Shown: piece by piece, positions 1 to 8,202 of the stretch
How positions within the stretch are numbered: the stretch's first letter is position 1
Layout of the letters: the number at the start of each line of letters is the position of its first letter
Virus record (IMG/VR): IMGVR_UViG_3300044716_000418
Span: 1-24,691 of that record
Strand: one strand, 5' to 3'
DNA: 24,691 nucleotides
Origin: a virus
The notes under the pieces: generated by a model
Databases searched by the model: none
What the model saw: the letters and a program-made list of their open reading frames with translations, nothing else
Told to the model about the DNA's origin: nothing
Program-made: the position numbers and the translations under genes

Positions 1-1509
1 CGTGGCCCTTCTTGTTTCGGTAGGTCGGTCTTTGATTGCGTGCCTCGCTCCGTTAGCTAAAACGGCGCAGGCTAGTAGGTCAATCTTTCGCGGAGAACCT
101 TTCTTCTCTTTGCGAAAGCTGCCGGCTTCGGTAGCGACGGCGTTTAGAACATGGCGTTCCAATCGTGGGTCGCCATCGTGTCCTATTTCATTGGCCACTA
201 AGTCGGCTAAAAATTGTTGAGCCATTGGTGCGATTCGATGATTCGTTGGCGGGATGCGTTCCACGCGTCTACGCCAGCGTTTGGACCATTCCAAAACATC
301 CGGTTCGTAAAAGCTCGGGTCTGCCCAAAGCATCTGAACGTTGTAGGTATCAAAAAGCTTCTCGATGGCAGCGTTTACATCTGCGCGGTCGACTGTCCAA
401 TCCGGGTTCTGCGGGTCTGGTTCCCAAACCGCGTGGACTTTGAAAGTACCGGTGCGAACGTCTTGAATGACAATGCCTGTTGCGTCGCCTGAAACGGAAC
501 CATCGAAACCAGCAACAACCTCGGCTCCGGGGGTGATTCCGTTTGGCCTTTTTGCGGCGGCCCAAAAGTGGGGGCTAATGAAATCCTCGCCCGCTAGTCT
601 AACCCATTGATTCAGGCGGAATCTTTGGAATCCTGCGAATCCGGCAGAACCGGCGCTCGCAATCGAAGCCTCAAAATCACTCAAATCCAAAAGACCCTCG
701 GCCAGATTCGGATTGGCCTCGCGCCAAACATCCGGGTCGGTCGGGTCCGCGTCTTGAGGCGCTTCCCACGACCAGAAACCAAATTGACGGTCGTCGACTT
801 CGCCAGCCGCTACGCGTCTGCCGTGTTCGTACAGCCGTCCAAGCAGGGTGTCTGTATGACCGCCGGCTGTCGTAATCCCGACCACGAGCGATTCAGGGCG
901 GTCGGCGCTTCCCTGCGTTAAGGCCTCCCAGAGTTCATCGCCTCGCGTATTGCTAGCCGAGCTTGGCCATGCGTGTAGCTCATCGGCTACCACGAGGGAT
1001 GGTGCTAAACCGTGGGCTCTCATAGCGTCCGCAGAGAGGGCCCGGTAAACCGAGCCTTTGGCGGGCACTTCGAGCGCGTCGCGATACACCTTGACGACCC
1101 GTGACAAAGACGGGGATGCCATTACCTGATTGCGCGCCTCGCCGAAAACAATGCGGGCTTGCGCACGGTCCGCGGCCGCTGAATAAATCTGCGCGCCGGG
1201 CGGTCCGTACATCAGGTGTTCGAGGGCCAATGCGGTTCCGAGAAGGGACTTGCCGTTCTTTCTCGGCAGTAGCACGATAGCCCTGCGAAATCTAAGAAGG
1301 TCTGTTTTGGGGTCGGTCTCTAATAACCGGTCAATCAACCATCGTTGCCAATCGGTGAATTCTAACCGTTGGCCTGCTCTAAATCCGCGTGATGCTTTTA
1401 GTAGTAGCGAAGCGAAATCGGCGGTGTTTGGCCCGCGAGACTTATCGTGTAAAGACGGAACGTAAAGCCGGGGAGCCCATGACGGGTCCGGCATAGGCAG
1501 AGTTGCCAA
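1..1509 (-). CDS. terL: Terminase large subunit (partial, runs off left edge)
   Basis: ATP-driven DNA packaging motor and nuclease that cuts concatemeric phage DNA and pumps it into the prohead. The frame stays open for about 503 codons to base 1, so the C-terminus is missing, probably only slightly. Visible are a Walker A-like LLPRKNGKS near residue 85, a Walker B LVVADE near 175, the ITTAGG coupling motif near 213, and nuclease-type acidic residues in GFDGS (about 336), WADP (about 397) and KIDLLACAV (about 476). This is the HK97/Terminase_1-like class. I chose the TTG at 1509 because a GGAGG lies 8 nt upstream; the ATG at 1494 has no ribosome binding site. It follows the HTH gene by a few bases. 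Confidence 0.93.
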   Translation of the reverse strand, partial: MATLPMPDPSWAPRLYVPSLHDKSRGPNTADFASLLLKASRGFRAGQRLEFTDWQRWLIDRLLETDPKTDLLRFRRAIVLLPRKNGKSLLGTALALEHLMYGPPGAQIYSAAADRAQARIVFGEARNQVMASPSLSRVVKVYRDALEVPAKGSVYRALSADAMRAHGLAPSLVVADELHAWPSSASNTRGDELWEALTQGSADRPESLVVGITTAGGHTDTLLGRLYEHGRRVAAGEVDDRQFGFWSWEAPQDADPTDPDVWREANPNLAEGLLDLSDFEASIASAGSAGFAGFQRFRLNQWVRLAGEDFISPHFWAAAKRPNGITPGAEVVAGFDGSVSGDATGIVIQDVRTGTFKVHAVWEPDPQNPDWTVDRADVNAAIEKLFDTYNVQMLWADPSFYEPDVLEWSKRWRRRVERIPPTNHRIAPMAQQFLADLVANEIGHDGDPRLERHVLNAVATEAGSFRKEKKGSPRKIDLLACAVLANGARHAIKDRPTETRRAT

Positions 1510-1512
1510 GCC

Positions 1513-1899
1513 TTATCCCTCCGCCTCGATTGCCGAGGCCGGCTTTCCCTCCACGCTAGATTGCTTTGGCGAGCGCTTCGAATAGGTTTCTGGAACCGTT
1601 CGTTCTAACCACCATGCGGCAGCTTGCCAATTTCCGTCCGATGCCGCGCGTTGAACGTATGTCACGTTTCTAACTATTGCGTCGGCCCGGGCCTTTTTCA
1701 TGTCATCCCAAAGTTGGAGAGCGATGGCATGAACGGGATTCGGTGCCTGCCCAACTGATACACGCTCGGCTTCGACCTTGCCTTGCTCTAGTAGCCGCAA
1801 AACCTCGGTGGATGAAAGGCCCGCATAGTGGCAAGCCGTTTCTAAGTCGGTTCCGTTTCGCAGGGCGGTAGCCATCTGCTCTATCTGCGCCTCATTCAT
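1513..1899 (-). CDS. HTH protein resembling a terminase small subunit
   Basis: 128-aa protein directly upstream of the large terminase. The N-terminus has a helix-turn-helix pattern, ETACHYAGLSSTEVLRLLEQG near residues 20-40. The rest is helical, with a WQAAAWWLERTVPETYSKR-like segment at about 93-112 that resembles phage small terminases with a homeodomain-like N-terminus (the phBC6A51 type, from memory). Its position next to terL suggests DNA recognition during packaging, but a P27-type small terminase is also present at 3314-3832, so its role is unclear. Start is either this ATG (TGATG overlap with the Mom gene) or a GTG three bases upstream; an AGAGG sits 7-10 nt away. Confidence 0.7.
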   Translation of the reverse strand: MNEAQIEQMATALRNGTDLETACHYAGLSSTEVLRLLEQGKVEAERVSVGQAPNPVHAIALQLWDDMKKARADAIVRNVTYVQRAASDGNWQAAAWWLERTVPETYSKRSPKQSSVEGKPASAIEAEG

Positions 1900-2696
1900 C
1901 ACGCCGGAACCTCTGAAAGGTGGAGCCCAGAAGTCGGAATTGCACCGCTCTCTGCTTCTTGGAAAGAAGCCGCATCGCTGTCTATGCTTTCGGGGCGTGA
2001 ACCTAGATACATTCTAGCGCCTGCTTCGTCAATAGCGCTGAATGGAAGTGTGGGAACCGCTAGGCGTGTCGCAGCCTCGGGGTCGATGAAGTAAATGTAG
2101 CGGAGCTGGAATCCCGGGACTACTTCTGCGCCGGCAGCGCGGCAGTAAGCCTTCCAATCGTACTTGCCGCCGGTTACGTCGTAGAACGTGCGGCCGCCTA
2201 ATTCTGGTCTAGGCGATAGAGGGTTCGATTGTAGGGTCATCGAGTGAATCACTACACCGTTGGGAAGTTTTGCTAGCTCGGCGTTTGGCTTGATTGCGGT
2301 TAGCTTGAAACCGCTTGCGCGATAGATAGTGCCATCTCCGCATTGTGCCCCATCGGCGAACGAGATAACCCATTGGACCGTTGGCGCGTGCTTCTTGAGT
2401 AGCTTCATCGCGATAGCAATCGCGCGAGATTCGGAATTCTTTGGGAGGGCATCGGAGAACGCCATCCGGTTAAGTTCGAGAAACCCGTTCCATGGGGTCT
2501 CTTTGACTAGCCCCTGAATTTTGCGCTTGTCGAGCGATGGGCCAAATTGTAAAGCGCCCTCTAGTTTTCCGGAATAATAAACGCCCATGTGAATCTGGGA
2601 GTTCATGACTACCTTGCCGGAGTAGTGGATGCGCTTAATAACGGCGTTAGCTTCCTGCGCCGAGATTGGCTTGATAATTAGGTCCTTGGCGCTCAT
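1899..2696 (-). CDS. Mom-like DNA adenine modification protein
   Basis: 265-aa protein of the Mom family. Phage Mu Mom, a GNAT-fold enzyme, hypermodifies adenines in DNA and protects it from restriction. Signature blocks seen are HYSG (24-27), SQIHMGVY (33-40), ALQFGPSLDKRKI (48-60), FLELNRMAF (72-80), NSESRAIAIAMKLL (87-100) and SFADGAQCGDGTIYRASGF (112-130). The C-terminal 60 residues look poorly conserved. The start is the ATG whose ATGA overlaps the ParB-like stop, indicating translational coupling. The ParB-like neighbour and the terminase context suggest DNA is modified before or during packaging (inference). Mu Com, the translational activator of mom, has no clear counterpart here. Confidence 0.87.
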   Translation of the reverse strand: MSAKDLIIKPISAQEANAVIKRIHYSGKVVMNSQIHMGVYYSGKLEGALQFGPSLDKRKIQGLVKETPWNGFLELNRMAFSDALPKNSESRAIAIAMKLLKKHAPTVQWVISFADGAQCGDGTIYRASGFKLTAIKPNAELAKLPNGVVIHSMTLQSNPLSPRPELGGRTFYDVTGGKYDWKAYCRAAGAEVVPGFQLRYIYFIDPEAATRLAVPTLPFSAIDEAGARMYLGSRPESIDSDAASFQEAESGAIPTSGLHLSEVPA

Positions 2697-3307
2697 ACCT
2701 GCGTCCCAAGAAAGAGTTCGCAAATTCGAGCGATGGCATTGCCGTTGTTGTTCGGGTTGCCGGTATCTCCAAAATCACCTAGAGCCTTAGCGGCCCTGAT
2801 AGCTTCCTTGACCGTTTCTACTTGGTCGTCATGGAAGGTGAAAGACATCTGCTGAATCGGCTCGCGGTCCCGGCTAGCGGCTTGGAAGGCATCGGCCCAA
2901 TCCTCGCCCGCGGGCAGGGATAGCGGCTCGAATCCGATGGCCTGAATCTCGAAGCCGGCTTCATCCAATTCGGAGAGAGTAGCGGCTAGCATGTCCGGGT
3001 CCCAATCGGCCAATTCTGCCGTTCGGTTATCCGCGAGCGCGAAGGCTTTAGCCTCGGCCTCGGCCCATTCATCCGGAACGCGGGTGATGCTGATTTCACG
3101 CCATCCGATAGATTTGGCCGCAACCATCGTTCCGTTGCCGGCGATGATTGTGTTCTGCCAAACGACCAACGGGCGGCGTTGGCCAAACTTCTCCAACGAT
3201 GAAGCGATGGCCTCAAGGTTTTTAGTTGGATGGCGGCGAGCGTTGTTTGGGTCGAGGGTAAGGGAATCTATGTCGACGGTTTCAACGGAAAGATTTTGAG
3301 CGGTCAT
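2693..3307 (-). CDS. ParB/Srx-fold nuclease-like protein
   Basis: 204-aa protein with an N-terminal ParB-like domain: DPNNARRHPTKNLEAIASSL (about 19-38), FGQRRPLVVW (41-50), the nucleotide-binding loop TIIAGNGTMVAAK (53-65), then VP and AEAKAFALADNRTAELADWD (about 84-103). Phage proteins of this kind are often fused to, or sit beside, DNA methyltransferases and other modification enzymes. Here the partner is the Mom-like gene, coupled by an ATGA overlap. The C-terminal half (about 110-204) is acidic and not recognised. An AGGA lies about 8 nt before the ATG. Whether it cuts DNA, hydrolyses nucleotide or only guides Mom cannot be read from sequence. Confidence 0.85.
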   Translation of the reverse strand: MTAQNLSVETVDIDSLTLDPNNARRHPTKNLEAIASSLEKFGQRRPLVVWQNTIIAGNGTMVAAKSIGWREISITRVPDEWAEAEAKAFALADNRTAELADWDPDMLAATLSELDEAGFEIQAIGFEPLSLPAGEDWADAFQAASRDREPIQQMSFTFHDDQVETVKEAIRAAKALGDFGDTGNPNNNGNAIARICELFLGTQV

Positions 3308-3313
3308 GCGGTC

Positions 3314-3832
3314 CTAACGTGTGGCGTTGAGGCGCTCCATGCGGCGGGCCTCTAGTTCATCCAAGGGGTCATACTCCCGGACCTCGCCAACGCCTAGGCG
3401 CGCGCGGTCTGCGGGTGAGAATCCAAGCGATGAAAGCCAAGACGTAATTTGCGTCCTTAACTCCCTTAGCTGGGAAACGTATGGGTGGGTCACGAAGGAC
3501 CCGTTTGGAAGTCTGTAGTAGCGAGGCACCTCGCCGATAGATAACGCTCGGCGCATCGATTCCGCTTCGTCTACGGTTTGGCAGAGCATCTTGATAACCG
3601 CGGCATCCGAATTCGGTGATAGCCAAAGGCGGCCGGCGGTCCAGATTTGCTCCCACAATTCCGCTCCATCGATTCCAAGGGTCGGAGGCGATGGGATGTC
3701 CTTTGCTGATAGCAAGCCCTCTCCGGGCAGCGGGGCATCGGGTAAAGATTTGTGCGACGGATTGCCGTTGAGGCGATGCTGCTCCGTCGGTTTCGGTGGC
3801 CGGCCATTCGGGCGGCCCGTGGGCGTGGCCAT
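3314..3832 (-). CDS. terS: Phage terminase small subunit, P27 family
   Basis: 172-aa small terminase, the DNA-recognition subunit of the packaging motor. Family features are the basic proline-rich N-terminus GRPNGRPPKPTEQHRLNGNP (6-25), the LWEQIWTAGRLWLSPNSD block (about 59-76), HPYVSQLRELRTQITSWLSSLG (about 116-137) and the ending SPADRARLGVGEV. AGGAGG sits 4 nt before the ATG. The gene follows a 212-bp non-coding region with phased repeats that could be its binding site. Five genes and domains of the usual actinophage order HNH, TerS, TerL are present, but here ParB, Mom and an HTH gene are inserted between the two terminase subunits. Confidence 0.87.
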   Translation of the reverse strand: MATPTGRPNGRPPKPTEQHRLNGNPSHKSLPDAPLPGEGLLSAKDIPSPPTLGIDGAELWEQIWTAGRLWLSPNSDAAVIKMLCQTVDEAESMRRALSIGEVPRYYRLPNGSFVTHPYVSQLRELRTQITSWLSSLGFSPADRARLGVGEVREYDPLDELEARRMERLNATR

Positions 3833-3904
3833 GCGGCCTCCTATTCTTTTGCCATGCGGCTAGGGCTCGAACATTTGTTCGAAAACATCTGTGGCCATGC
3901 GGCC
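3828..3904 (+). repeat. Three copies of GCCATGCGGC with helical phasing
   Basis: GCCATGCGGC(C) occurs at 3828-3838, 3851-3860 and 3894-3904, so starts are 23 and 43 bp apart, close to two and four helical turns. The first copy overlaps the terS start codon. Phased repeats next to a small terminase gene are the expected form of a TerS-binding (cosB or pac-like) element; that function is inferred. Confidence 0.45.
3867..3882. promoter_or_regulatory. SOS (LexA) box 1
   Basis: TCGAACATTTGTTCGA is a perfect 7-2-7 palindrome and matches the actinobacterial LexA operator TCGAAC-N4-GTTCGA at all twelve specified bases. It lies 35 bp upstream of the terS start. No clear promoter hexamers overlap it, so the regulated transcript is uncertain. 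Confidence 0.6.
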
Positions 3905-4004
3905 GAATCAAGGGGCTACCCCCCTGCGGGTTTCCCGAGCGCACGCATTGGCTCATCACGCCGGGCCCGGGTGGCCCCCTCCGGGGGGGCTCTCCCCCGG
4001 GTAC

Positions 4005-4020
4005 TCGAACACTTGTTCGA
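4005..4020. promoter_or_regulatory. SOS (LexA) box 2
   Basis: TCGAACACTTGTTCGA is a second perfect 7-2-7 palindrome with the same match to TCGAAC-N4-GTTCGA, 138 bp from box 1 and 25 bp beyond the HNH stop codon. Two sites could allow looping by one or two LexA dimers (inference). Confidence 0.6.
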
Positions 4021-4044
4021 AAGTCCAAAATTTGGGGAATCCCC

Positions 4045-4395
4045 CTAGAATCTCCGCTTTATTCGATTGTCACGCTGGGAATTCAACCCTTCGGTCGATG
4101 ATTTCGAGCGATGGCAATGCGGAGGAACGCGGTCATGGACGGCCGCTAGATTGGTCAACCCATGGTCATCGTTTGGAACGATGTGGTCGACCGTATCAGC
4201 GCCGGGTTCTCCGCAGAGGTAGCAGATTCCATTGTCGCGTTTCAAGACAATCATTCGTCTAGTCCTCCAATCGGAGGGCAGGCGCTTCCGCCTAGTGCTA
4301 CTCCCCCAGGGGGCTTTTTGGTGTGGCCCACATCTGCCTTGGTTGATAGCAGGGGAGGGGCATTTGTTTTCAAGACAGGGGGTAGGTGCTAGCAA
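4045..4395 (-). CDS. HNH endonuclease (packaging-associated type)
   Basis: 116-aa HNH nuclease. The N-terminus has a zinc-binding-like pattern, CLENKCPSP then GRCGPH (about 7-25), followed by SSTRRKRLPSDWRTRR, a CYLCG half-knuckle near 58-62, the catalytic VDHIVPNDDHGLTNL (about 69-83) and a C-terminal HCHRSKSS. Phage HNH proteins beside terminase assist cohesive-end cleavage in HK97-like packaging. The start is a TTG without a visible ribosome binding site, chosen because the residues after it match family N-termini. HDRVPPHCHR in place of a shorter HD..CHR hints at a small insertion. Confidence 0.82.
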   Translation of the reverse strand: MLAPTPCLENKCPSPAINQGRCGPHQKAPWGSSTRRKRLPSDWRTRRMIVLKRDNGICYLCGEPGADTVDHIVPNDDHGLTNLAAVHDRVPPHCHRSKSSTEGLNSQRDNRIKRRF

Positions 4396-7899: not shown

Positions 7900-8202
7900 T
7901 TAGGCCCCCTGCTTTGTGCGCCATAGAATCGCGAACCGCCCGGAGCGTAGTTTTACGCGGCCCCCGGTGTCCTCGATTAGGCCTTTGGTGGTTAGCTCGG
8001 CCCTGCGGCTTCGGATGCCGGACGGGCTTGCGTGTTTCCATCCATTAGAATCGGCCATCTGATAATACACGTCCACTAGGTCCTCGTCCGTTTTTGGCCA
8101 TGTGAGCAGGGTTAGGATTGCCTGCTGCGTTTCGGTTATGTTGCTTACCGATGCGGCCGCTTCGTGGCTAGTCATCGGGTCGGTCTTTCTTGCTACTGCC
8201 AT
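7900..8202 (-). CDS. Winged helix-turn-helix protein
   Basis: 100-aa protein of a type common in actinophages: an N-terminal TDPMTSHEAAASV, then TETQQAILTLLTW, DLVDVYYQMAD, SPSGIRSRRAELTTKGLIED (recognition helix and wing, about 59-78) and a basic C-terminal strand RVKLRSGRFAILWR. It likely binds DNA, perhaps as a small regulator. The ATG lies 2 bp after the preceding stop codon. Confidence 0.75.
   Translation of the reverse strand: MAVARKTDPMTSHEAAASVSNITETQQAILTLLTWPKTDEDLVDVYYQMADSNGWKHASPSGIRSRRAELTTKGLIEDTGGRVKLRSGRFAILWRTKQGA

Follow-up and report, generated by a model that had tools for sequence, protein, structure and literature searches.

Paired LexA-type boxes around a putative cos site in an uncultured actinophage family

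To our knowledge few phages are switched directly by host LexA, and those that are known to be have their boxes within a promoter. In phage GIL01 of Bacillus thuringiensis the promoters P1 and P3 are under the control of host LexA (PMC6182141, PMC4551915), with LexA silencing the late promoter P3 (PMC6182141). The phage described here is represented by record IMGVR_UViG_3300044716_000418, a contig of 24,691 bp that was analyzed in its entirety (the window). As in GIL01, its genome contains apparent boxes for host LexA, and GIL01 P3, which drives the late genes, has two boxes. However, GIL01 is a tectivirus-type phage that requires the phage protein gp7 as a co-factor, and its boxes are about two turns apart in one promoter, whereas the window phage belongs to a family of cos siphoviruses and its boxes lie on opposite sides of the putative cos.

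In Streptomyces venezuelae, a gene annotated as phage tail fiber has a LexA box and is induced by mitomycin C (SOS) (PMC9380542). The 16-bp LexA motif given in this source is identical to that of the window, but the part of the source used here describes a single box before the tail gene and no cos context (PMC9380542). The nearest cultured terminases are those of the Pontimonas phage phiPsal1 and the phiC31-type phages, with 35–37% identity in the large subunit (TerL). Phage phiPsal1 (MG835450.1), whose host is known, contains three SOS-like boxes, two of them perfect, within ~220 bp (at 8041, 8213, and 8246), but these are close to glycosyltransferase and methyltransferase gene ends and none is beside the terminase genes. 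In phiC31 the right end of the genome has an HNH gene nearby and the left end the terminase small subunit gene (TerS), which places the two genes on either side of cos, as in the window. Lambda-type cos sites contain sites for IHF and so use a host DNA-binding protein at cos, as the window cos may also do, although IHF is architectural whereas LexA is a damage-responsive repressor.

Two LexA-type boxes and a putative cos site

The window derives from a tailed phage. Its host is most likely an actinobacterium, since a WhiB gene is present and the closest terminases in cultured phages are from Pontimonas and Streptomyces phages. Nearly all of the recognized genes share one direction, and the order on the minus strand is HNH, a 212-bp gap (3833–4044), TerS (P27 type), a ParB-like gene, a Mom-like gene, a second small terminase-like protein (phrog_4102), and TerL. 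TerL follows TerS directly in many relatives, suggesting that the intervening segment in the window (1513–3307), in which the Mom-like gene is a DNA modification gene, is a variable cargo slot. When prophages of this family were sought in genomes no close relative was found. The features of the region are listed below, with box starts numbered on the TerS strand from the first base after the putative cut.

1..1509, minus strand: terminase large subunit, continuing past the contig edge (phrog_9, 1e-102)
3314..3832, minus strand: terminase small subunit, P27 / Terminase_4 type (phrog_83, 6e-24; PF05119)
3867..3882, no strand assigned: LexA-type box A, TCGAACATTTGTTCGA, terminase side of cos, +71 from the putative cut, exact motif match
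3928..3937, minus strand: conserved CGGGAAACCC element of cos, 13 bp past AGC, with equal spacing in relatives
3950..3963, minus strand: likely cosN core, CGGCGTGATG^AGCC, putative cut between 3954 and 3953, from the alignment of relatives, several of whose contigs begin at AGC
3981..4000, minus strand: inverted repeat of G/C runs in the cos region, CCGGGGGAGAGCCCCCCCGG, at -47; inverted repeats are at -44 to -48 in most relatives
4005..4020, no strand assigned: LexA-type box B, TCGAACACTTGTTCGA, HNH side of cos, -67 from the putative cut, exact motif match
4045..4395, minus strand: HNH endonuclease adjoining cos (phrog_333, 1.8e-20; PF01844 slightly below its cut-off)

A first-pass annotation had placed two perfect actinobacterial LexA operators in the HNH–TerS gap, and the two 16-mers are indeed there, 138 bp apart from start to start. 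Both are perfect by the criterion for this operator (the 16-bp palindrome tCGAAC-N4-GTTCGa), and an exact search of the window with TCGAACN4GTTCGA returned only TCGAACATTTGTTCGA and TCGAACACTTGTTCGA, in agreement with the earlier statement that there is no further full match in 24.7 kb. Chance had been considered a very unlikely source of two such sites, and 100 dinucleotide-preserving shuffles of the window yielded no perfect site, bearing this out. When up to three mismatches are allowed there are 11 sites in the window compared with 7.0 +/- 3.3 by chance, such that the two perfect boxes are the only exceptional ones; they score 14/14, and the best of the remaining sites 11/14.

The HNH–TerS gaps of relatives share a conserved core, CGGCGCGATT-AGC, with CGNGAAACCC located 13 bp beyond it and, in most, the inverted repeat of G/C runs at about -46. 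Several independent contigs begin exactly at AGC, in the way that assemblies stop at a physical genome end, and the core is therefore likely to be cosN. A direct pattern search for the cos core gave only one contig, without a recognized TerS or HNH gene. The boxes had also been proposed to be part of the packaging site, and this fits with their flanking the putative cosN on both sides at near-fixed distances in relatives.

Between cos and TerS there are one to three tiny hairpins of the form nnCC-GCAN-GGnn, and these are present in the gaps of relatives as well. In the window they are at 3893–3904, 3850–3861, and 3827–3838 on the minus strand, the last of which contains the TerS start codon. 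Of 78 distinct instances, 68 have pairing at one of the two variable flanking positions and 56 at the other, against ~21 expected, with many different base pairs being used, which argues for a real stem (RNA or single-stranded DNA) under selection. The hairpins perhaps act as a cosB-like element or allow TerS to autoregulate its translation. Two relatives (L054 and L055) lack SOS boxes and have a repeated CTAGATGTAGT motif upstream of cos, these repeats possibly being operators of another regulator.

Similarity to host lexA operators

The half-site derived from 20 sites of the phage family is tCGAACR, with RNNY at the centre, and it resembles the S. venezuelae LexA motif determined by ChIP-seq, tCGAAC-N4-GNNCGa (PMC9380542). 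A perfect box is present in 118 of 148 sampled actinomycete genomes, with the reversed control being mostly 0. Eight actinomycete genomes of 1.3–1.4 Mb contain exactly two perfect boxes each, with ~50% GC around the sites, and in each of the seven small genomes whose site on the lexA side was inspected, one box precedes lexA (PF01726 and PF00717). In four genomes (G112, G046, G166, and G083) the box before lexA is letter-for-letter the same as box B of the window (4005–4020), and the second box of the lexA promoter is one base off box A (3867–3882).

The case for the phage sites being made for host LexA rests most firmly on these identical or near-identical boxes at the lexA promoters of small-genome actinomycetes. 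Together with the motif and its class-wide use in actinomycete genomes, these boxes support the initial assignment well, and we regard the two palindromes as very probably operators of host LexA. The lexA-promoter match is also a possible clue to the host group. In the lexA promoters of the four genomes (L332, L337, L339, and L342) the two boxes are ~59 bp apart from start to start, and their variable centres equal those of the two window boxes.

Box pairs in related phages

A TerL search identified 43 contigs with TerL 71–81% identical, and alignments of HNH and TerS added others. TerS alone as a query against viral contigs returned nothing, and the gap DNA has no match in cultured phages. 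Relatives with both genes on the contig usually have the order HNH, a gap of ~200 bp, and TerS. The box positions, numbered as above, are as follows.

Window: -67 and +71
L018: -68 and +38
L028: -67 and +37
L029: -67 and +37
L030 and L034: -66 and +37, with an additional box at -87
L036: -67 and +48
L209 and L210: -77 and +48
L047: -68, downstream box degenerate (boxes are also degenerate in L049)
L020: downstream box at about +47; the contig begins at cos

Six lineages thus have the upstream box at -66 to -68 and one has it at -77; the downstream box is mostly at +37/38 or +47/48, with that of the window at +71. Among 25 comparable cos regions (~25 related contigs), seven lineages have boxes on both sides, one is partial, and 17 have none, and a box on one side accompanies a box on the other (Fisher p 1.7e-5, kinship ignored). 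Most contigs beginning at cos, in which the far genome end is out of view, were not scored as being without an upstream box. In whole records of four of the phages (L018, L036, L029, and L030) all or nearly all GAACN4GTTC sites are the cos boxes. The pair recurs at cos in diverged relatives; the first-pass annotation had proposed conservation in related phages as a check.

The boxes are patchily distributed on the TerS tree, where the two-sided state requires at least five changes. L041, the sister of L209 (TerS 78% identical), is without the downstream box. Two members of the L029 group, L043 and L195, have neither an upstream nor a downstream box. With this patchiness, and with 17 of the 25 cos regions being box-free, an obligatory signal for TerS or terminase is rejected. 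The same absences, and the turnover among close TerS relatives, run counter to the alternative raised at the outset that the palindromes are conserved as a part of cos irrespective of LexA.

Paired boxes in other phages are in varied contexts (replicative helicase, primase, tape measure, TerL), and the cos context is therefore specific to the family of the window phage rather than general. In an unrelated group of phages (L060, L102, L105, L108, and L111–L113) SOS-type boxes are present in sets of two or three, mostly at a spacing of 111 bp; those of L060 and L102 occupy a divergent intergenic region and precede a phrog_38-type TerL by ~0.5 kb.

Possible roles of the boxes

In five of eight phages a -10-like hexamer (TANNNT) is situated 0–1 nt past the downstream box (null 0.03 per site, p about 1e-6, kinship ignored), and the downstream box could therefore cover a terminase/late promoter. 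Such a hexamer is absent from this position in the window and in L018, and a sigma-70 promoter scan of the window gap returned nothing. Inspection by eye showed no TANNNT hexamer beside the upstream box, which is just past HNH, and this box has no adjoining promoter; because the recognized genes are nearly all in one direction, LexA at this box could block early-to-late read-through, or it could pair with the downstream box. We consider the best single function to be that the boxes hold the terminase/late operon off until SOS, to which we assign a probability of roughly 0.55. As long as there is no DNA damage, LexA would be bound as a dimer to the terminase-side box, covering the beginning of the terminase/late operon, and another dimer, at the HNH-side box, would stop read-through from the early genes or reinforce repression. 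Phage replication or host damage would activate RecA, leading to LexA cleavage and loss of the block, such that the terminase and late genes would be expressed.

A different role for borrowed LexA, as a silencer, was among the initial proposals. Tyrosine integrases are present in three of eleven relatives' records (L015, L018, and L028, the L018 match being below the family cut-off), and none of the eleven has an S24/LexA-like repressor gene, so LexA-based silencing of lysogens is possible for some relatives. In the window no integrase was recognized, and lysogenic silencing would then not be needed. Nor are there boxes at an early (lysogeny) promoter in the manner of GIL01, the only perfect boxes in the window being at cos. 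In two integrase-bearing relatives a gene for a small HTH-like protein is divergent from the tyrosine integrase (L170, 1922–2512; L171, 1940–2395), and is a candidate for a repressor or for excision control.

LexA, or a LexA-like dimer, might bind the boxes and act on cos rather than on transcription, with two dimers around cosN shaping or shielding the packaging complex, or lying close to each end of the linear genome once it is injected. The boxes are either paired or absent altogether, and their near-constant distances from cosN are what would be expected, although distances inside cos are conserved anyway and the window downstream box at +71 departs from the pattern, falling between hairpins. 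The centre spacings (103–106, 115, 125, and 138 bp) come close to integral numbers of helical turns (R 0.78, p 0.008); the phasing is suggestive only, however, with p 0.06 on the four different spacing classes. The conserved cos core is also retained in the many cos regions without boxes, and box presence changes between relatives as close as L209 and L041. We treat action on cos as the main rival reading, possible but not favored. A specific form of it, in which LexA dimers on both sides of cosN would delay terminase cutting, or mark incoming genome ends, until SOS, such that packaging itself is damage-gated, is rather doubtful. The near-fixed distance between the upstream box and cosN is nonetheless unexplained by a pure promoter operator, and transcriptional control and action on cos are compatible, such that both can be true.

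The position of the boxes inside cos and beside the TerS and HNH genes, together with the other repeated motif upstream of cos in L054 and L055, could reflect a phage-encoded protein, whether TerS, HNH, or some other regulator, with coincidentally the same motif as LexA. This is improbable, as the agreement with lexA operators covers the motif, its RNNY centre, and even the four variable bases, and box-bearing and box-less TerS relatives are intermixed. An S24 repressor as the owner of the boxes is rejected, there being none in the eleven relatives' records, and no S24/LexA-like gene was recognized in the window. The boxes are high-quality, lexA-grade sites, and copies would presumably multiply along with the phage DNA, so they might act as decoys, titrating LexA while the phage replicates and thereby inducing or sustaining SOS; for decoys, however, there would be no need of pairing across cos or of a near-constant location there, and this role seems very unlikely. 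That the palindromes arose by chance and have no function is scarcely credible given the shuffles and the reuse of the same two places in diverged relatives, although the degenerate boxes of L047 and L049 show that decay is possible.

LexA control of phage late genes is already known from GIL01, and it is the cos-flanking arrangement of the boxes that appears to be new. An uncultured actinophage family has a pair of lexA-grade operators around its packaging origin, at near-constant distance and gained or lost as a unit. The pair is a sequence signature with which such phages can be found and the LexA specificity of their hosts guessed. If the boxes are bound by LexA, the SOS state would be coupled either to DNA cutting or to expression of the late genes, suggesting that the virus may tie its packaging genes, or the site at which its DNA is cut, to the damage alarm of its host.
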